Assembly (NCBI RefSeq): GCF_038593265.1
Contig: NZ_CP151979.1
Location: 1,426,001 to 1,490,000, forward strand
Direction: 5' to 3'
Length of the DNA stretch: 64,000 nt
Origin: Ureibacillus sp. FSL W7-1570
Lineage (GTDB): Bacteria; Bacillota; Bacilli; Bacillales_A; Planococcaceae
Shown here: in pieces, positions 5,333 through 55,943 of the stretch
How the letters are laid out: each line of letters begins with the position of its first letter
How positions within the stretch are numbered: the stretch's first letter is position 1
The notes under the pieces: generated by a model
The model's database searches: none
What the model saw: only the letters and a program-made list of their open reading frames with translations
What the model was told of the DNA's origin: nothing
Position numbers and translations under genes: made by a program

Positions 5333-6235
5333 CTGGAATTACGTCAATTGCGCTATTTTGTTGAAGTGGCAGAGCGGGAACATATTTCAGACGCTGCTGA
5401 ACACCTTCATGTAGCTCAATCTGCTGTGAGCAGACAAATAGCAAATTTAGAAGAAGAGCTTGGCACACCACTTTTTGAACGGGTCGGGCGGAATGTGAAA
5501 TTGACACCGATCGGCAAAATCTTTTTGGAGCATGCCATTACCGCACTCAATGCCATCGATTATGCGGTCAAGCAAGTGGAGGAATATTTGGATCCTGAAA
5601 GGGGCTCCATTAAAATCGGGTTCCCTACCAGTTTAGCAAGTTACGTTCTTCCGACAGTCATTTCCGCCTTTAAAAAAGACTATCCTGATGTCAATTTCCA
5701 CTTGCGTCAGGGTTCTTACCGATACTTGATCGAAGCGGTGAAAAATCGGGAGTTGAATCTTGCCTTTCTTGGCCCGGTACCCCGAAAAGATGAAAGCATC
5801 AATTCAATGATTTTGTTCAACGAAAATATTTGCGCCCTGCTTCCCGCCAATCATCGGCTGGCGAAACGGGATAAAATCCATTTGGATGAACTGCGGAATG
5901 ACAATTTTGTTCTTTTCCCGGAAGGATACATTCTACATAAAGTCGTGGTCGATGCATGCAAATCGGCTGGTTTTCTTCCTAAAGTCACTTCGGAAGGGGA
6001 AGATATGGATGCTTTGAAAGGGATGGTGGCAGCAGGCATTGGCGTCACATTGCTTCCTGAAAGCTCCTTCTATGATTCAACCCCGCGTTTAACGATCAAA
6101 ATGAAAATTGATAACCCAAACATCACACGCAACGTAGGAATCATTTATCCGGCGAACCGGGAATTGGCTCCTTCTGAACAAGTATTTATCAAATTCGTCA
6201 ATTCATTCTTCTCCAGATTGAATCAATTCCAATAG
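5333..6235 (+). CDS. gltC: LysR-family transcriptional regulator, GltC-like
   Basis: This is a 300-residue LysR regulator with an N-terminal winged helix-turn-helix (about 1-60; SDAAEHLHVAQSAVSRQIAN) and a C-terminal ligand domain. The sequence closely resembles what I remember of B. subtilis GltC, the activator of gltAB (glutamate synthase), including IKIGFPTSLAS and VLFPEGYILHKV. The usual first residues MELRQLRYF are recovered only by starting at CTG 5333, six bases after a strong GGAGGG (5321-5326); a TTG at 5348 is the alternative and would trim the conserved start. No gltAB is adjacent, whereas in B. subtilis gltC lies next to gltA, so the target may differ. It is divergent from suf and ends at a shared terminator. 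Confidence 0.78.
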   Translation: MELRQLRYFVEVAEREHISDAAEHLHVAQSAVSRQIANLEEELGTPLFERVGRNVKLTPIGKIFLEHAITALNAIDYAVKQVEEYLDPERGSIKIGFPTSLASYVLPTVISAFKKDYPDVNFHLRQGSYRYLIEAVKNRELNLAFLGPVPRKDESINSMILFNENICALLPANHRLAKRDKIHLDELRNDNFVLFPEGYILHKVVVDACKSAGFLPKVTSEGEDMDALKGMVAAGIGVTLLPESSFYDSTPRLTIKMKIDNPNITRNVGIIYPANRELAPSEQVFIKFVNSFFSRLNQFQ

Positions 6236-6248
6236 CCTTTTAAATTAG

Positions 6249-6285
6249 AAAAAACCTCCTAATCATCCCGATTAGGAGGTTTTTT
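6249..6285. terminator. Bidirectional rho-independent terminator between gltC and metQ
   Basis: A perfect 16-bp stem, AAAAAACCTCCTAATC (6249-6264) with GATTAGGAGGTTTTTT (6270-6285), and a five-base loop give U-runs on both strands. It suits the two convergent genes. Confidence 0.93.
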
Positions 6286-6294
6286 ACCGCTAAA

Positions 6295-7152
6295 TTATTC
6301 GCTTACTGGTACTACTGAGCCGCCCCATTCTTCAAGAATGAAGTCTTGGATTTCTTTGGAGCGCAATACTTCTACCAATTTTTTGATTTCTTCGCGGTTT
6401 TCATCGCCAGAACGTACAGCAATTACGTTTACATAAGGTGATTCTGAACCTTCAATGGCGATGGAATCTTTTACAGGGTTGATGCCTGCGTCAATCGCAA
6501 AGTTGGAGTTGATGACAACTGCGTCTCCTTCTTCGTTTTCATAATATGTAACCATCATTTCAGGAGCGTCAGTTGCTTCAATTTTCAAGTTTTTCGGATT
6601 TTCTACAATATCATCCAATGTGGCTTTTGTTTTATCAATGCCGTCTTTTAATTTGATTAAACCTTGCGCTTCAAGCAATGATAAAATGCGGCCATGGTCA
6701 GGAATTGAGTTTGAAATCAGGATTGTCGCACCATCAGGCAGTTCATCTAAAGATTTATATTTTTTGGAGTAGATGCCGATCGGTTCGATGTGGATACCGC
6801 CAGCATTGACTAGATCATAACCTTCTTCGGCCACTTTTTGTTCAAGATACGGAATGTGTTGGAAGTAGTTTGCATCAAGGTCGCCATTGTTCAAATCTTC
6901 GTTTGGCAATACATAGTCTTGATATTCTTCAATTTCCAGTTCAATTCCTTCTTTTTCCAAAATAGGTTTGGCTTTTTTCAAAATCTCCGCATGCGGTGTA
7001 TGGGAAGCACCCACTTTTAATGTTACTTTTTCTTTTGTTTCGTCGTCTTTTGTTCCTTCATCAGACGAAGAATTTGCATCGTCTTTCGTACCGCATGCTG
7101 CTAGTGCGAGTACAAGAACGGATAAAAGCAAAAATGATAATAATTTCTTCAT
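6295..7152 (-). CDS. metQ: Methionine-binding lipoprotein MetQ
   Basis: MetQ is the membrane-anchored receptor of the methionine ABC importer. The 285-residue product has a lipoprotein signal peptide with lipobox LAAC (Cys20) followed by a low-complexity Ser/Glu/Lys linker and the NLPA fold from about residue 45 (LKVGASHTPHAEIL, then YFQHIPYLEQ and the late motif NFAIDAGI). It is the last gene of metN-metI-metQ on the minus strand, 59 bases after metI, with an AGGAG-type site. The whole operon lies downstream of a SAM riboswitch. Confidence 0.95.
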   Translation of the reverse strand: MKKLLSFLLLSVLVLALAACGTKDDANSSSDEGTKDDETKEKVTLKVGASHTPHAEILKKAKPILEKEGIELEIEEYQDYVLPNEDLNNGDLDANYFQHIPYLEQKVAEEGYDLVNAGGIHIEPIGIYSKKYKSLDELPDGATILISNSIPDHGRILSLLEAQGLIKLKDGIDKTKATLDDIVENPKNLKIEATDAPEMMVTYYENEEGDAVVINSNFAIDAGINPVKDSIAIEGSESPYVNVIAVRSGDENREEIKKLVEVLRSKEIQDFILEEWGGSVVPVSE

Positions 7153-49256: not shown

Positions 49257-49378
49257 CTTGATTTCTCCACTGTTTTGGCGGATTCATTTCCTACTGTTGG
49301 CCATTGGAAAGATATTTTTCTCCAATTGTTCTACTGTGAGTGGTCTGCTTCGCACTCACTTCTCATTGAATCACTCAT

Positions 49379-50500
49379 CTATCTACTTATTTGGGTATTG
49401 GTGACATATTTTTCTTCTAACTGTTCAAGGGCTTCTTTATAATTTTGTTCATTGATTGCCTTTAATTCTTTATTGAAATTTTTAATCTCATTATCAATCC
49501 ATTTATGATATTTACTATTTTTATTTATTAAATATTCGTAGGTTTCATTATTAAATACTTTTTCTTCGTGCAATTTTGTTAAAATGAAATATATTTTTTC
49601 TCTCTCTTGTACTCCTTTACTTTCTTCCTTCGTTATATAAACAAAAATTTCCAAGTTATTTTTAATATAATTTCTTTCATATTGTTGTTTTCCCTGCTTC
49701 AACCATTTCCCCCATTGTTCTGCCAAATTATTCAGTTTTTCCAGTTCCTTTTGCAATTCACTTTCACTTGTTACTGTGCCATAGATTCCATTCACTTCGG
49801 AAGCCAATTGTTTCAACTGTTGTTGCCCTTCATTATCCACATCAAATCCAATCACATTTATAATAGGGGTAATATTGAAGTTGTATAACTCTTTGGCCGC
49901 TTCTATCGGCTCGTCTTCACATGTTTCGATTCCATCACTGACCAAGTACACAATATTGGTATTGTTTTCACCGTCAAAGGCAGCCAAATCCTTTTTGGCT
50001 TCACGCAATGCCAGTCCGATTGGCGTCCAGCCGCTTGGAGAAAATTGATTAAGCGCTGCTTTGAACTGTTCAGGATTATAATTGGAAATGGAATACATCA
50101 GTTCACTGCTGCTGCAGGATAATTTCTTATCCGAATCAGAGCCACTTCCTTTATGGCCATAAACTCGAATGCCAACTTTCGCATTTTGCGGCAGTTTTTC
50201 TACAAAAGCTAAAATAGAGTCTTTGGCTGAAGCCATTTTTGCTTTCCCATTGATGGTTTGTGCCATACTTCCCGATGCGTCAATGATAAATAACACATTT
50301 AAATTCTCTTTGAATTGGTAGCGGGAATCCGTAACTTGGGGATTACCAAATGTTTCAAATTTGAGTCGATTAATCAGGTTTTCTGGTCCCTCATAATCAA
50401 ATTGCACTCGTTTTAATATTTCACGATAATAGCTATCTAATTCTTGTTCAGTTGGATTTTCAGAGATATCCGGTAAATCACTGAAAACTTTTAAATCCCC
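49379..50500 (-). pseudogene. VWA-domain (YwmC/YwmD-like) protein gene lacking its 5' end
   Basis: The open part from GTG 50407 gives 342 residues with an intact von Willebrand A domain: MIDAS DASGSM (D43), GWTPIGLA and VSDGIETC, plus RVYGHKG and IGFDVDNEGQQQLKQ typical of the Bacillus VWA lipoprotein family. The same frame continues upstream with family-like residues (DLPDISENPTEQELDSYY) to about 50500, yet contains no other start codon before running into the agrC terminator and a stop. The GTG lacks a good ribosome binding site. The family normally has a lipoprotein signal peptide and a longer N-terminal part, both missing. I infer a deletion that removed the start. Confidence 0.7.
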
Positions 50501-50502
50501 AC

Positions 50503-50538
50503 AAAAAAACCTCGAAAGGCTTCACGCCTATCAAGGTT
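50503..50538 (-). terminator. Terminator after the agrC-like gene
   Basis: On the minus strand CCTTGATAGGC (50536-50526) pairs with GCCTTTCGAGG (50520-50510) across GTGAA, followed by seven U. It closes the kinase gene and abuts the broken VWA gene. Confidence 0.85.
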
Positions 50539-50552
50539 CATTCATTGAAGTA

Positions 50553-51869
50553 TCACTCACTGGTTGATTTCCTCTCTGGGCAATCATATCCATGATTTTT
50601 AATTTCCAGAACTTGAGTAAAGGAATTCTCATGAATGGAAGTGTTTAAATGGGCATTGGGATAATGATTCAAAATACATTTTACATTGCTTAACCCTTTT
50701 CCGCGGTTTTGCCCTTTTGTGGAGAAGCCTTCTTTATAGATTTCCTCCACATTCACCAAATCTCCATTGAAAGTATTTTCAATAATGATCATCACGGAAT
50801 CGCTGTTTGTTTTATAAAAAGCGATATCAATACTTTTTTCCGACTTGGAATCCGCAGTCGCTTCAATGGCGTTATCCAAAAAGATTCCCAGAATTCGCGC
50901 CAAATCAATCATATTCATATGAATATCTTCAATTTCATCCGATATTTCGATATTGACTGAGATGTTTTCATTTTCGGCCTGCATCACTTTTGATAAAATG
51001 AGCCCTTTAATACCGGTTATTTTCAACTTTGATAAAGAAGCCAACAGCTGATTCCTCTTTAACGTGTTCTCCTCGGTCGAAAATATATGCTTTTTAAAAT
51101 ATTTTTTCAATCCTTCAAAATCATTGACTTCTATGTAACCTTGCATTGTAACGAGTATATTGAGGTAATCATGACGGAATTTTTGCATATCATTATTGAT
51201 TACTTCCAACGACTTCATATAGTTCTCAAACTGGGCATTTTCAAATTCAATTTTATTAATGTAATGTTGCTTTTTGATGTTGAAAATCGTCAAAGAAAGT
51301 ATAAACAGCATGATGGCAAAGTAAATAATTTGAATACTGAGATTAAAAACCAAAATGGTATCCTTTGATAAATATTCCGTCAAATAAATATTTATATAAA
51401 AGGTGGCCATCGTTACGATCAGCACAAAAAGAATGAATATGTAAGCGCTTTTCATTTCCGGGACATATGCAATGACCTCATTGTAAAAATATCGGTAAAT
51501 CAGAATACATAAAATATATATCAAAATGAAAAGGCAATAATGTTCCAGAACTCCCGGCAAGAAATCAAAGGTAAAAGAAAGCAAAACATATTGGGTGAGA
51601 TTGTCCACCAGAATGCCGAAAATGATGAAAAAGCAAAGGTGTATCAGCACTATATAATCCCTCGAAAGCACATAAAGATAAACGAAGGAACTGATAATGA
51701 AATAAACAATCCCTTGCCATTGTCCCATCCATAAAAAAGCGAGGCTGGTAGGTCCAAAAATGAATAAAATGAAACCGAAAATCGATTTAAAGTTTAATTT
51801 GATTTGCGCTGTGTACATGATTGCCCAAAAAATCAAGAAAAGCTCAATCGTTATAAACAAGATTTTCAT
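50553..51869 (-). CDS. agrC: AgrC-type sensor histidine kinase
   Basis: A 438-residue peptide-sensing kinase: about six to seven transmembrane helices in the first 205 residues, then a GHKL-type kinase (HPK10 group). The phospho-acceptor is the histidine in KFRHDYLNILV, the N-box is ILGIFLDNAIEA and the G-box GKGLSNVK. This is the AgrC/ComD layout. AgrC binds a cyclic autoinducing peptide and phosphorylates AgrA, but no response regulator follows: after the stop comes a terminator. AGGAG precedes the ATG. A promoter and a hairpin separate it from agrD. It may signal to a regulator elsewhere or be an orphan relic. Confidence 0.87.
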   Translation of the reverse strand: MKILFITIELFLIFWAIMYTAQIKLNFKSIFGFILFIFGPTSLAFLWMGQWQGIVYFIISSFVYLYVLSRDYIVLIHLCFFIIFGILVDNLTQYVLLSFTFDFLPGVLEHYCLFILIYILCILIYRYFYNEVIAYVPEMKSAYIFILFVLIVTMATFYINIYLTEYLSKDTILVFNLSIQIIYFAIMLFILSLTIFNIKKQHYINKIEFENAQFENYMKSLEVINNDMQKFRHDYLNILVTMQGYIEVNDFEGLKKYFKKHIFSTEENTLKRNQLLASLSKLKITGIKGLILSKVMQAENENISVNIEISDEIEDIHMNMIDLARILGIFLDNAIEATADSKSEKSIDIAFYKTNSDSVMIIIENTFNGDLVNVEEIYKEGFSTKGQNRGKGLSNVKCILNHYPNAHLNTSIHENSFTQVLEIKNHGYDCPERKSTSE

Positions 51870-51952
51870 ATTTTTCTCCTAGCTTAATTAATAGAGTGAT
51901 GTTGGTTGTCTCGTGATGTATTGTGGAAATAAAATGGGTATTCCTATATTTT

Positions 51953-51981
51953 ATTTTAATAATACAATTCACCTGTAACAA
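51953..51981 (-). promoter_or_regulatory. Possible sigma-A promoter for agrC
   Basis: On the minus strand TTGTTA (51981-51976) and TAAAAT (51958-51953) are 17 bases apart, lying after the agrD-agrC hairpin and 84 bases before the agrC start. AT-rich context makes chance matches likely. Confidence 0.45.
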
Positions 51982-51999
51982 GGTACAGTTGTCTTGACA

Positions 52000-52040
52000 T
52001 AAAAGAAAAGTTCCGACGGGATCATGGAAGTCGGAACTTT
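52000..52040 (-). terminator. Terminator-like hairpin between agrD and agrC
   Basis: On the minus strand AAAGTTCCGAC (52040-52030) pairs perfectly with GTCGGAACTTT (52017-52007), followed by TCTTTT. It starts 13 bases after the agrD stop, so it would lower or stop read-through from agrBD into agrC. Confidence 0.75.
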
Positions 52041-52053
52041 CTTACAAAATGCA

Positions 52054-52212
52054 TTATTTTTTTGAAGCAAACAGATTATTTTGTAATAACTCATTTGGCA
52101 CTTTTTTCTCATGGAATAATGTCGTACATCCATTTGTAGTCGCTATTCCTCCGAATACCACTACAAATGCAGCAATTTTTGCCAATACATTTTTAACACT
52201 CATCCATTTCAT
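52054..52212 (-). CDS. agrD: AgrD-like cyclic autoinducing-peptide precursor
   Basis: A 52-residue minus-strand ORF with AgrD architecture. Residues 1-24 form an amphipathic/hydrophobic leader (MKWMSVKNVLAKIAAFVVVF). The peptide core follows, TTNGCTTLF with Cys29, then the charged tail HEKKVPNELL, which matches the usual C-terminal recognition pattern with VP-EL. The predicted product is a thiolactone ring of Cys29-Thr-Thr-Leu-Phe33 with a short N-terminal tail. Its start lies inside the 3' end of agrB (20-base overlap), with a GGGGGAA site upstream. Precursor order and overlap with agrB are as in known agr operons. Confidence 0.88.
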   Translation of the reverse strand: MKWMSVKNVLAKIAAFVVVFGGIATTNGCTTLFHEKKVPNELLQNNLFASKK

Positions 52213-52781
52213 AATAAAATTCCCCCTTGATTGATTGTGCTATTAGCATAATAGTTTCCACCAATACCCCATAAGCAATAAAAACCTTCACATCAAAATT
52301 CACAATGCAAAATATTCCGAATATTAGGAATACGCGGAACATCATTTTTTTCCGCAAATATTTTTTATGATTTTGATTAATAAGCGGATGTTTTTCTGTG
52401 CCTTTTGGTGCAAGCATATAAATGAGTATTAATGAAACTCCAAAGATGATGTATAAGAGAGTGCCGGAAATCATATTATAATAACTGGCAATCAATTTGA
52501 CCGCGATTGGAAATGTAATGATGCTTGTACCAATGCACACATACAAATTGCTGAAGTGATATCCAAAACAAACCTGCCTTAACAGAAAGAAGCTAATATG
52601 AGCAATCAATGTAGGAACAATGCAGTCTAATAAATAAGCCAAAGAATAGATTAAGATGATTTTGTAGAGTTCAGAAAGAATGAGTTGAATTCCAAATTTT
52701 AATTTTTCCCTTTCCAGATTGGAAAAATACTCTTGATTTAATAGATGGAAGATCGCGTTTTCGATTCTGGAAATTTCTCAT
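52193..52781 (-). CDS. agrB: AgrB-like peptide-processing membrane protease, frame shifted at codon 3
   Basis: AgrB cleaves AgrD and forms the thiolactone. The frame from 52642 down encodes 149 residues with the catalytic pair His and Cys seven apart (CFGYHFSNLYVC), matching H77 and C84 of S. aureus AgrB, and four or so helices. The missing N-terminus is readable in the same frame up to 52774 (ISRIENAIFHLLNQEYF), but the only ATG with a good site (AGGAGGGAG, ATG 52781) is one base out of frame. Removing one A from AGAAATTT would give MRISRIEN and a 195-residue normal AgrB. So there is a one-base insertion, an ATT start, or a sequencing error. Confidence 0.8.
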
Positions 52782-53094
52782 ACTCCCTCCTTTGTTTGAT
52801 AGTAAGTGAAATTTCACCTCCCACCTTTATATTACCACCAATTCATAAATTGGTAAATTATTGATTTTTTACTAAATTTACCATTATAAGTTAATATTTA
52901 TTTGCTTTTGTATTCATTTTTTTGATTATTCCCACTATTACCACATTTCACATTCAACTTTATTCTTGCTGTTTTTACATGTTATGATAGTATAAATAGG
53001 ATTTTTCAACACAACTGGTTTCCAACAAAAAAATTGGAAAAATAGTATTATTTAAGGTAACATAGGTTTGGAATTGAAAGGAGGAAAAAGAAAA
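52782..53094. other. Divergent control region between agrB and the 35-residue peptide gene
   Basis: This 313-base AT-rich region has the palindrome GTGAAATTTCAC (52806-52817), an inverted repeat ACCAATT-CATA-AATTGGT (52837-52854), a hairpin TTTCCAA/TTGGAAA (53019-53040) and an extended -10 box TGTTATGAT (52980-52988) pointing toward the small peptide gene. I do not see the canonical AgrA direct repeats. Any of the inverted repeats could bind a regulator. Confidence 0.45.
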
Positions 53095-53202
53095 ATGTTT
53101 GATCAAATTGGTATTGGCATCATCCAAGCTTTGATTGTTGTGTCTGTTGTATTTATCGTTCTTCTTTTACCGATTGGAGATTACTTATTGAGAAAAAAAT
53201 AA
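53095..53202 (+). CDS. 35-residue single-helix membrane peptide
   Basis: Too short for routine calling, but ATG 53095 is preceded by an excellent ribosome binding site, GAAAGGAGG, with an A-rich spacer. The product MFDQIGIGIIQALIVVSVVF, then a further hydrophobic run and the tail GDYLLRKK, is one transmembrane helix with a basic end. A terminator follows 19 bases after the stop. It is transcribed divergently from the agr-like genes, the position of hld/RNAIII in staphylococci, but its sequence is not like delta-hemolysin. It could be a membrane-active peptide, a small regulator of a membrane protein, or a toxin. Confidence 0.72.
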   Translation: MFDQIGIGIIQALIVVSVVFIVLLLPIGDYLLRKK

Positions 53203-53220
53203 TGCACATATTTTATATAT

Positions 53221-53254
53221 AAGAAGGGGGGGAAATGATGCTCCCTTCTTTTTT
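53221..53254 (+). terminator. Terminator after the 35-residue peptide gene
   Basis: AAGAAGGG (53221-53228) pairs with CCCTTCTT (53243-53250), followed by further T. It confirms that the small gene is a transcription unit of its own. Confidence 0.82.
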
Positions 53255-53489
53255 CATTTTCAATGATGGCTTCATTGTCAACAAATTGACAAATTGGAAC
53301 CTATTGAAGAAGTTGAAATTTCTTAAGAAAATAGAAAATGGTATCTGAATTTTATTAACAAAAGTGGTATGATTACATCAAACCAAAATATTAGTCGGCA
53401 TTATTTTAATCAGAATTGATTGATTCACGTTTCTGTTCAAAGCTGCTGACGATTATTAAACTTCTTCAAATATATTGAGGTGATGGAAA

Positions 53490-53906
53490 ATGCAAAATCG
53501 CAAGCTGGTCATTCAAATGGAATTGCCAATACAAGCTTATGATATTGATGCAATGGGAATTGTGAGTAATCTTGTGTACGTGCGGTGGTTTGAAGATTTA
53601 CGAATGGAATTTTTAAATGCGACGTATTCCTTGACAGAAATGATGAAATCGAACATTACACCGATTTTGATGCGCACGGAAGTCGACTACCGCAAACCGC
53701 TCACGATTTTTGATAAACCAATCGGGCGATGCTGGTTGGTTGAATCGGGGAATTCCAGCTGGGAGATGGCATTTGAAATCAAGAGCGGGGACAAGCTGTA
53801 CTGCAAAGGCATACAGAAAGGCTGCTTCTTTGATTTAGAAAAGAAAAAAGTAACGCGCATACCTCAGCAATTAATCTCAGCCATCGATCGCCTTATTGAA
53901 CCGTAA
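53490..53906 (+). CDS. Acyl-CoA thioesterase (4HBT, YbgC-like hot-dog fold)
   Basis: A 138-residue hot-dog protein. The catalytic motif of 4-hydroxybenzoyl-CoA thioesterases is seen as YDIDAMGIVSNLVYVRWFED (residues 17-36), where D20 is the probable catalytic aspartate. RTEVDYRKPLTIFD and the strand-rich rest fit the family. It hydrolyses an acyl-CoA of unknown chain. GAGGTGATGG precedes the ATG. It is a single gene, followed by a hairpin. Confidence 0.85.
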   Translation: MQNRKLVIQMELPIQAYDIDAMGIVSNLVYVRWFEDLRMEFLNATYSLTEMMKSNITPILMRTEVDYRKPLTIFDKPIGRCWLVESGNSSWEMAFEIKSGDKLYCKGIQKGCFFDLEKKKVTRIPQQLISAIDRLIEP

Positions 53907-54215
53907 TCATGATCGTTCTGGGGCAAATCCATTGGGTTCCGGAGATTGCCCCAGCCGCACCATTTGCGCAACCCTTTCAAAACTTCCCCCAATCCGATTC
54001 AGTATGGGAGGACCTAACACTCCCTTTTTTTACCTATACTTCCAATATCAACATGTTTATTCATTATACCAAAATACCTTTATATCGTGATGAATCTTTC
54101 AATACGCTAGCAATTGTTATTAATTTAATAGTAATAGATACAATTATAATAGTAGAAATTAATATATTTTTAGAAAAAATTATTATTTCCGTTTTTTTCA
54201 GATAATTAAAAAGTG

Positions 54216-54244
54216 TTTATTTTAATAAAAAAATCTGATATTAT
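54216..54244 (+). promoter_or_regulatory. Possible sigma-A promoter of the opp operon
   Basis: TTTATT (54216-54221) and TATTAT (54239-54244) are 17 bases apart, about 77 bases before the oppA start. The -35 is poor, as expected for a regulated promoter, and the region is AT-rich, so chance is possible. Confidence 0.5.
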
Positions 54245-54257
54245 GATTTCGATAATC

Positions 54258-54295
54258 AAATTTCAGAAAAATGCGCAGACTATTTTCTGAAAAAT
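54258..54295. promoter_or_regulatory. Two CodY-type operator sites upstream of oppA
   Basis: AAATTTCAGAAAAAT (54258-54272) and TATTTTCTGAAAAAT (54281-54295) each match the 15-base CodY consensus AATTTTCWGAAAATT with two mismatches. A weaker third copy (54193-54207, three mismatches) lies upstream. They sit just after the predicted transcription start, suiting repression by CodY with branched-chain amino acids and GTP. Confidence 0.7.
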
Positions 54296-54320
54296 TGAAA
54301 AAAAAGTTGGGGGGAGAAAT

Positions 54321-55943
54321 ATGAAAAAGAAGAAGTATTGGCTCTTATTAGCAGCACTTTTCGCACTGACATTGGTGCTGGGTGCCTGCAGCGGCGACAA
54401 AAAAGACGAAGGAAAGGAATCTTCCGGAAAAAAAGAAATTAATTTAGTCATTGCTTCCGAGCCTCCTTCCTTACATCCGGGACTTGCGACAGACTCAACT
54501 TCCGGTGCGATTTTGGACAACGTATTTGAAGGTTTGACAACCCGTAAAGATGGGGAAATCGTGAATGCAGTGGCAGAAGACATTACAATCAGCGATGACC
54601 AATTGACTTACACATTCAAATTGCGCGATGCAAAATGGTCAAACGGCGATCCTGTAACAGCACAAGATTTTGAATACGCTTGGAAATGGGCATTAAATCC
54701 TGAAAACGTTTCCGAATACGCTTCCATCCTTTACCCGATCAAAAACGCAGAGGCATACAATAAAGGTGAAGCGACTGCTGATGAAGTCGGAATCAAAGCG
54801 GAAGACGACAAAACATTGGTTGTCACATTGGAACAACCGACACCTTATTTCTTGGAATTGACGGCATTCAAAACATACTATCCGGTTAATAAAAATGTAG
54901 CCGAGAAAAACCCTAAATGGTACACAGAAGCAGGAGAAGATTATGTAACAAACGGTCCATTCATGCTGGATTCATGGAATCACGACAAAGACATTACATT
55001 AAAGAAAAATCCGAATTACTGGGATGCTGACAAAGTGGCTCTTGATCAAGTCAACATTACAATGGTTGAATCTGAACAAACAGCTTCAACAATGTTCGAT
55101 AATGATGAAATCGATTTCTTGGGATCTCCATTCCAAACAGTGGCATTGGATGCGATTGACCAATACAAATCAGAAGGCATTTTAAATATCGAAGACTACG
55201 CAGCCATTTACGTGTACAAATTCAATACAACAGATGAAATCCTTAAAAACAAAAATATCCGCAGAGCTTTGGCACTTGCAATTGACCGTCAATCATTGAT
55301 CAAAAACATTACAAAAGGGGAACAAAAACCTGCGTTAGGTATGGTTCCTGTAGCGATTCAAGGTTTTGAAGAAGATCGCGGCTACATCAAGGACAATGAT
55401 GTGGAAGAAGCGAAAAAAGCCCTTGAACAAGGTATGAAAGAGCTAGGAATCAGCAAACCGGAAGATATCAACATCACAATTTCATTTAATACGAGTGAAG
55501 CCCATGCATCCATTGCCCAATTCATTCAAGAAAATTGGCGCAAAAACTTGGGCATCAATGCAACACTTGACAACTCCGAGTGGCAAGTTTACTTGGACAA
55601 ACTGACAAAATTGGATTACCAAGTTGGCCGTTTGGGTTGGATTGCAGACTACAACGATGCTTACACATTCTTAGAGCAATATGATTCTGCTGATAACGGC
55701 AACAACGATACAGGTTGGGAAAATCCAGAATACACAAAACTTTTAAGAGAAGCGAACAAACAAACGGATGAAGAAAAACGTTTTGAAATGTTAAAACAAG
55801 CGGAAGCAATCATCATGGAAGAAATGCCGGTTGCACCAATTTACTACTACACTAGTCTGTACGTTTCAAAAGACCATGTGAAAAACATGAAACCGGATAA
55901 ATTGGGCAACATTTATTTGAAATATGTTGATATTGAAAATTAA
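54321..55943 (+). CDS. oppA: Oligopeptide-binding lipoprotein OppA
   Basis: Receptor of the oligopeptide ABC importer. The 540-residue product has a lipoprotein signal with Cys23 (LVLGACSGD) and the SBP_bac_5 fold; EPPSLHPGLATDSTSG, the stretch LRDAKWSNGDPVTAQDFEYAW and NIRRALALAIDRQ are typical OppA features. Peptides imported this way feed nutrition and, in Bacillales, signalling (sporulation, competence). GGGGGGAG precedes the ATG. A hairpin separates it from oppB, which would leave the receptor in excess over the membrane complex. Confidence 0.95.
   Translation: MKKKKYWLLLAALFALTLVLGACSGDKKDEGKESSGKKEINLVIASEPPSLHPGLATDSTSGAILDNVFEGLTTRKDGEIVNAVAEDITISDDQLTYTFKLRDAKWSNGDPVTAQDFEYAWKWALNPENVSEYASILYPIKNAEAYNKGEATADEVGIKAEDDKTLVVTLEQPTPYFLELTAFKTYYPVNKNVAEKNPKWYTEAGEDYVTNGPFMLDSWNHDKDITLKKNPNYWDADKVALDQVNITMVESEQTASTMFDNDEIDFLGSPFQTVALDAIDQYKSEGILNIEDYAAIYVYKFNTTDEILKNKNIRRALALAIDRQSLIKNITKGEQKPALGMVPVAIQGFEEDRGYIKDNDVEEAKKALEQGMKELGISKPEDINITISFNTSEAHASIAQFIQENWRKNLGINATLDNSEWQVYLDKLTKLDYQVGRLGWIADYNDAYTFLEQYDSADNGNNDTGWENPEYTKLLREANKQTDEEKRFEMLKQAEAIIMEEMPVAPIYYYTSLYVSKDHVKNMKPDKLGNIYLKYVDIEN

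Follow-up and report, generated by a model that had tools for sequence, protein, structure and literature searches.

An agrBDC locus of Ureibacillus with an apparent ATT start of agrB and no agrA found in the genome

Gene order and the agrD product

The window, that is, the whole 64,000-nt stretch of Ureibacillus sp. FSL W7-1570 analysed here, carries on its minus strand three genes in the order agrB (52193..52774), agrD (52054..52212) and agrC (50553..51869). The host genome is a single contig of 3.28 Mb with one AgrB match. AgrB matches were found in 25 of 261 genomes of the family (E ≤ 1e-10) and in 9 of 25 genomes of the genus (E ≤ 0.001), and an order-level search, likewise of 261 genomes, brought no additional locus. 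Plasmid origin was considered and rejected: 11 plasmid records match AgrB, with an identity of at most 29.7%.

We compared the window with 26 longer loci, two of which are the same (L027 and L095), so that there are 26 distinct loci with the window included. Eleven of them form the window's clade, defined by an AgrB identity of 50% or more to that of the window and by membership of an AgrC clade that was supported 100/100 in a tree of 23 rows. Copies, near copies and cut AgrC sequences (L027, L091, L035 and L097) were left out of this tree. The nearest loci are those of U. terrenus (L028; AgrB 73% and AgrC 72% identical to the window's) and U. thermosphaericus (L029; 71% and 68%).

A sequence-only reading had proposed a 52-residue AgrD-like precursor overlapping agrB, and a 52-codon ATG frame indeed lies at 52054..52212 (minus strand). 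Its full translation is MKWMSVKNVLAKIAAFVVVFGGIATTNGCTTLFHEKKVPNELLQNNLFASKK, laid out as MKWMSVKNVLAKIAAFVVVFGGIATTNG-CTTLF-HEKKVPNELLQNNLFASKK. The frame has a purine-rich ribosome site (tcaagggggaattttatt), its 5′ end shares 20 bases (52193-52212) with the 3′ end of agrB, in keeping with the expected overlap, and agrC lies downstream. The AgrD profiles that had been suggested as a check gave a split result: the NCBIfam model TIGR04223 recognized the ORF above its cut-off (21.6 bits against 19, E 1.7e-4), while Pfam's Staphylococcal AgrD (PF05931) gave 16 bits, under its gathering cut-off of 22.7. As AgrD we accepted ORFs with a Cys (or Ser) core, a hydrophobic residue four positions on, a charged tail of the VPxxL type and an adjoining agrB; the ORF at 52054..52212 has this core, ring end, tail and neighbour, and an equivalent ORF follows agrB in all ten other loci of the clade. 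Given the TIGR04223 match and the ten orthologous loci, it is by family resemblance a genuine AgrD-type pheromone precursor, ordinary in kind.

The predicted thiolactone ring, Cys29-Thr-Thr-Leu-Phe33, is encoded at 52114..52128 (minus strand). Its place follows from the AgrD alignment, and its size, closure and cleavage sites are those expected from the family. The Cys and the ring-end Phe are present in 11 of 11 aligned clade members, which agrees with the five-residue ring initially predicted; Gly and Ala in the leader, Glu and Leu in the tail and a late Phe are likewise without variation. For the window's peptide, the computed [M+H]+ values of the predicted thiolactones are 566.264 (CTTLF), 623.286 (GCTTLF), 737.329 (NGCTTLF), 838.376 (TNGCTTLF) and 939.424 (TTNGCTTLF); U. 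thermosphaericus has other residues ahead of its ring. The 'VP-EL' tail held up in part: VP is kept in 10 of the 11 sequences (U. thermosphaericus has IS instead) and the Leu of 'EL' in all of them, but the Glu of 'EL' in just 4.

A search for the CTTLF core in related genomes found it in U. thermosphaericus and in Bacillus sp. CGMCC 1.16541 (L026). U. terrenus differs from the window in having CTALF, and the remaining clade members carry CTAFF, CTIWF (two loci), CTLLF, CSLLF, CTSLF and CTTIF. The sequence-only reading named no described pheromone with this core. The literature on AgrD-type signals and on Ureibacillus, searched by topic, gave nothing on a CTTLF ring; as a sequence, however, the core is not unique, being shared by these two relatives.

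The start of agrB

The agrB frame scored 105.7 bits against PF04647 (cut-off 23). All 11 clade loci retain the His of the GYH motif and a Cys seven residues on, which we take to correspond to the catalytic pair of S. aureus AgrB. We placed the start of the gene by homology at an ATT (52772-52774, minus strand), from which 193 aa are read. An in-frame TGA at 52778..52780 (minus strand), two codons ahead of the ATT, excludes any upstream in-frame start, and the first ATG, GTG or TTG inside the frame comes 44 codons past the ATT. No usable ATG, GTG or TTG start was found near the Shine-Dalgarno (SD) sequence of the window's agrB.

This SD, AAAGGAGGG at 52785..52793 (minus strand), contains a GGAGG that ends 11 nt before the ATT. 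Its duplex with the 16S tail of the host genome (L039), against which all SD energies were computed, amounts to -13.2 kcal/mol. A GGAGG or GGGTG core ending 7-11 nt upstream of the agrB start is present in 11 of 11 clade loci, with duplexes from -10.2 to -17.2 kcal/mol; in the same loci the agrC duplexes range from -5.9 to -8.9 kcal/mol (-8.1 in the window). For the 45 ORFs of the window with 200 aa or more, whose starts were set mechanically, the median is -9.3 kcal/mol and 11% reach -13.2 or lower.

At the start position, the clade has ATT in three loci (the window, U. terrenus and U. thermosphaericus), ATA in five (L026, L030, L032, L034 and L087), ATA directly preceded by GTG in two (L031 and L033) and ATG in a single one (L088). 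AUU or AUA thus stands alone in 8 of 11 loci, or in 7 of 10 without L026. The ATA of L026 is weaker evidence, since its agrB (5998-6570) is open for 149 codons and then meets a stop, past which the homology goes on without a change of frame; the agrD, agrC and agrA frames of this locus look open. Extra in-frame starts occur 5 to 40 codons upstream in L033, L034 and L088, those of L034 (28 and 40 codons upstream) being far from the SD. In the 15 other distinct loci, read by eye, agrB starts with ATG (13) or TTG (2), and the start codon of agrC is ATG throughout the clade (11/11).

One third-position change would turn the agrB start into ATG, yet fourfold sites in AgrC differ at 42-80% (28 pairs from 8 clade loci), so that the weak start codon looks maintained. 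We thus find a conserved near-cognate codon behind a strong SD and no ordinary in-frame start near that SD, as in the AUU/AUA class of starts. By homology of position, agrB appears to start at a rare, weak ATT.

The ATG at 52779-52781, 4 nt behind the GGAGG, allows another reading, in which AgrB begins out of frame and is completed by ribosomal frameshifting, or else begins at an inner in-frame codon. Such an ATG stands between the SD and the ATT in both the window and U. terrenus, but in the latter its frame ends after four codons, and U. thermosphaericus has no ATG, GTG or TTG there. The inner in-frame candidates vary in place from locus to locus (6 to 114 codons past the start), and the ATG of L088 sits exactly at the ATT/ATA position. 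We consider both variants of this reading very improbable compared with initiation at the ATT.

A conserved weak start apparently exists in infC of this family as well. In 7 of 7 genomes (L121-L127), GGAGGTGG is followed, after a few bases, by ATT-AGC-AAA, whose ATT we take to be the start codon from its position and from the start of infC elsewhere. This start is one that we infer, since the in-frame codon four past the ATT is ATG in six of the seven genomes (TTG in U. terrenus), although it lies too far from the SD.

Local mRNA folds of the 11 loci revealed no shared structure that would mask the agrB start, and an Rfam scan of 49300-54400 gave no match at the gathering threshold. Sigma-70 promoter predictions were uninformative, with 16 found against 15.4 expected from shuffles. 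Upstream of agrB and divergent from it, 53095-53202 (plus strand) holds a hydrophobic 35-aa ORF (MFDQIGIGIIQALIVVSVVFIVLLLPIGDYLLRKK) with a GGAGG ribosome site, followed by a terminator-like hairpin.

agrC, the end of the unit and the absence of agrA

The agrC gene (50553..51869, minus strand) encodes a sensor kinase of 438 aa with a GHKL domain (PF14501, 65.4 bits), and motif alignment showed intact H, N and G boxes. Its best NCBIfam match, the staphylococcal AgrC equivalog NF046015, covered residues 7-419 with 236.7 bits, below the cut-off of 500. By these scores the protein is AgrC-like and lies outside the staphylococcal equivalog.

A hairpin with a T run resembling an intrinsic terminator (50503..50539, minus strand) begins 13 nt past the agrC stop. 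Folding of the 51-nt stretch gave -20.7 kcal/mol; a simple terminator scan had missed the hairpin. The agrBDC unit therefore seems to end behind agrC without agrA. In the usual place of agrA lies an ORF with a VWA domain (49379..50407/50490, minus strand; PF00092, 51.3 bits). Its open frame has 380 aa, against 457-506 in 14 matches from other genomes, and the gene seems to have lost roughly 80-120 N-terminal residues where it meets the agrC terminator. This truncation suggests that the region underwent deletions. Of the VWA gene, U. terrenus retains no more than 69 residues, with a stop inside the part that matched; this remnant lies about 3.2 kb away from its agrB.

No AgrA was found in the host genome, which has 23 receiver matches and 2 LytTR proteins (at 2075476 and 2538782) and never both domains together; the N-terminal parts of the LytTR proteins are covered by no receiver match. 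The best hit of an AgrA query (E 3.5e-7) was a receiver protein with a neighbouring kinase. A complete agrBDCA system, with a receiver-LytTR AgrA beside agrC or elsewhere, was thus not found, and an AgrA encoded at a distant site of the host genome was rejected as an explanation, as the LytTR and receiver matches never coincide.

For the count of agrA across loci we used the 24 distinct ones with enough sequence, setting aside L035 and L097 at contig ends. Searches by tblastn with AgrA found the gene at 16 of them and not at the other eight, namely the window, L028 (U. terrenus), L029 (U. thermosphaericus), L032, L034, L088, L093 and L099. The whole genomes of these eight were searched with AgrA along with three controls, all of which have AgrA at the agr locus. 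AgrA-like proteins turned up elsewhere in three of the eight (G022, which is U. thermosphaericus, G232 and G118), and in G022 and G232 the distant AgrA adjoins an AgrC of its own. In the remaining five (G000, G016, G008, G005 and G211) the AgrA query, from which the result for G211 comes, found nothing better than E 1.2e-7; in G008 there are a receiver-LytTR protein belonging to a different kind (L065) and one further LytTR match.

Unlike the window, U. thermosphaericus carries two more agrCA pairs at other genomic sites (L036 and L128), and its AgrC could use these other AgrA proteins. Among the three ATT loci, therefore, only the window and U. terrenus are without AgrA genome-wide. Altogether the U. 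thermosphaericus genome holds three agr-type loci: the agrBDC of L029 without agrA, an agrBD and an agrCA in divergent orientation, and a pair of agrC and agrA with no agrB match in 10.7 kb.

On the AgrC tree, at least five changes of agrA state are required. The ATT trio, in which no member has agrA beside agrC, forms one clade (100/98), and this fits one old loss of agrA followed by constraint. The AgrC tails differ among the loci without agrA, and these differences, together with the five or more changes of state, could reflect repeated decay rather than one rewiring. An HDY/HDH variant of the AgrC H box was considered as a mark of agrA loss and rejected, the association not being strict. 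Behind the agrC stop of L088, we observed a ribosome-site-like stretch and an ATG where agrA of the sister locus L087 starts, after which the sequences diverge, as if agrA had been deleted just past its start.

Retained function, output and comparison with known systems

In the ATT trio, NG86 estimates of dN/dS for AgrC were 0.166/1.35, 0.203/2.43 and 0.191/3.00 (0.12, 0.08 and 0.06), and for AgrB 0.165/1.59, 0.172/1.47 and 0.189/1.60 (0.10, 0.12 and 0.12); the pair of the window and U. terrenus has 0.12 for AgrC and 0.10 for AgrB. The L032-L034 pair gave 0.077/0.56 for AgrC and 0.088/0.41 for AgrB. The eight pairwise values span 0.06-0.22 and are rough, since synonymous sites are near saturation. 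From these ratios, agrB and agrC look to be under purifying selection. This, together with the terminator of its own behind agrC, makes it most likely that AgrC remains active in signalling, with a response regulator other than AgrA. Because U. thermosphaericus has other AgrA proteins, the window and U. terrenus carry most of the case for retained function.

The same data bear on the alternative of a decaying locus, in which agrA was deleted, mutation removed the start codon of agrB, and pheromone production and sensing have ceased. Decay would be in line with the failure to find agrA in the genome, the truncated VWA gene directly past agrC, the divergent AgrC tails, the lack of an ATG, GTG or TTG start of agrB and the interrupted agrB of the relative L026. 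However, ATT is common to three species and ATA stands alone in five other loci; three of these five (L026, L030 and L087) keep agrA, and hence a weak start does not depend on the loss of agrA. The frames are open with a dN/dS of 0.06-0.12 among the three species without agrA beside agrC, the kinase boxes are intact and a terminator-like hairpin lies behind agrC. We regard decay as unlikely. Taken as a whole, the locus is best explained as an agrBDC system in which AgrB starts at AUU, AgrA has been lost and AgrC signals through a different regulator, and we consider this explanation probable.

In such a system, AgrB would convert AgrD to a cyclic thiolactone whose ring is Cys-Thr-Thr-Leu-Phe, and AgrC would detect this ring, as family knowledge and conservation suggest for both steps. 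AgrB would be translated from the AUU behind its unusually strong SD; as with infC, ribosomes should initiate poorly at such a start, and IF3 should discriminate against it. The level of AgrB probably stays low and may vary with IF3, and the scarcity of AgrB would limit signal production. With the cognate AgrA presumably lost from the genome, the output of AgrC would pass to another, non-AgrA receiver.

To survey possible partners, 23 receiver and 26 ATPase matches were paired by eye at a distance of 3 kb. Eighteen of the receivers have a kinase-type ATPase match within 3 kb; for another one (378 aa), which we take to be CheB, the presumed CheA is found within that distance. The remaining four have no neighbouring kinase. 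We take three of them to be like CheY, CheV and (125 aa) Spo0F, respectively; the fourth is Spo0A, the only one of them to pass a model cut-off (TIGR02875, 363.9 bits, cut-off 200). As the Spo0F-like protein and Spo0A are the only non-chemotaxis receivers without a neighbouring kinase, AgrC might feed the sporulation phosphorelay through one of them, but this would be a guess by elimination. AgrC could also be a second kinase for a regulator that already has one, as described for Listeria in the available text of PMC10891604, and in the accessible passages of PMC10301443 the authors working on C. acetobutylicum thought Agr not to act directly on the sporulation cascade. The sporulation route seems to us quite unlikely. 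We are just as doubtful about the composite in which the regulator was dropped, AgrC was plugged into another pathway, possibly the sporulation phosphorelay, and the signal is throttled by an IF3-sensitive AUU on agrB.

A transfer of AgrC to some other regulator would nevertheless be feasible, because in vitro the AgrC of Listeria transfers phosphate to Lmo1172, which is not its cognate regulator, and Listeria mutants point to an Lmo1172 route upon AgrA deletion (both from the available text of PMC10891604). An agrBDC lineage kept under selection without AgrA would break the agr loop and would make sensor rewiring testable in environmental bacilli. That agrB has a conserved AUU/AUA start suggests that translation acts as a brake on pheromone output; if the throttle by AUU and IF3 is true, how much pheromone is made would be coupled to the condition of the translation apparatus. 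Gene callers restricted to ATG, GTG and TTG would probably mis-start or truncate agrB.

Non-canonical starts of this type are described in S. aureus, where, according to the accessible parts of PMC13009471, infC, ccpN, cvfC1 and citZ start at AUA or AUU and the first three have an extended SD. Relative to AUG, reporter fusions of cvfC1, ccpN and citZ yielded about 10% in poor medium, and the ccpN fusion up to 30% in rich medium (same text). The agrB described here resembles infC, ccpN and cvfC1 of that study in its AUU/AUA start, strong SD and cross-species conservation; it differs in being the gene of a pheromone-processing protease, and the effect of its start is a predicted one. The term 'agr' has 0 occurrences in the main text of PMC13009471. 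Our literature searches found no report of a Ureibacillus agr or of an agrB with a non-AUG start, and the agr literature, as far as it was accessible, offered neither an AgrA-less agrBDC with a kept sensor nor an agrB starting at AUU or AUA.

The agr system serves as the paradigm for peptide quorum sensing in Gram-positive bacteria and is usually depicted as a closed loop, with AgrA activating its own operon; in S. aureus it has the layout agrBDCA. With this system the window shares the order B-D-C, an AgrB of the same protease family, an AgrC of the GHKL kinase type and a five-residue ring with a charged tail. It differs in that no agrA was found in the genome, in a unit that seems to end behind agrC, in the ATT of agrB and in scores below the cut-offs of the Pfam staphylococcal AgrD and NCBI staphylococcal AgrC models. 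Judged from these features, the locus is an agr variant in which the regulator has been lost, the sensor and the signal have been kept, and the protease gene stands on a conserved near-cognate start. A further incomplete agr is agr1 of Clostridioides difficile, which, in the available text of PMC8534292, consists of agrB1 and agrD1 only. It is without both sensor and regulator, whereas the window keeps the sensor and only the regulator is missing.
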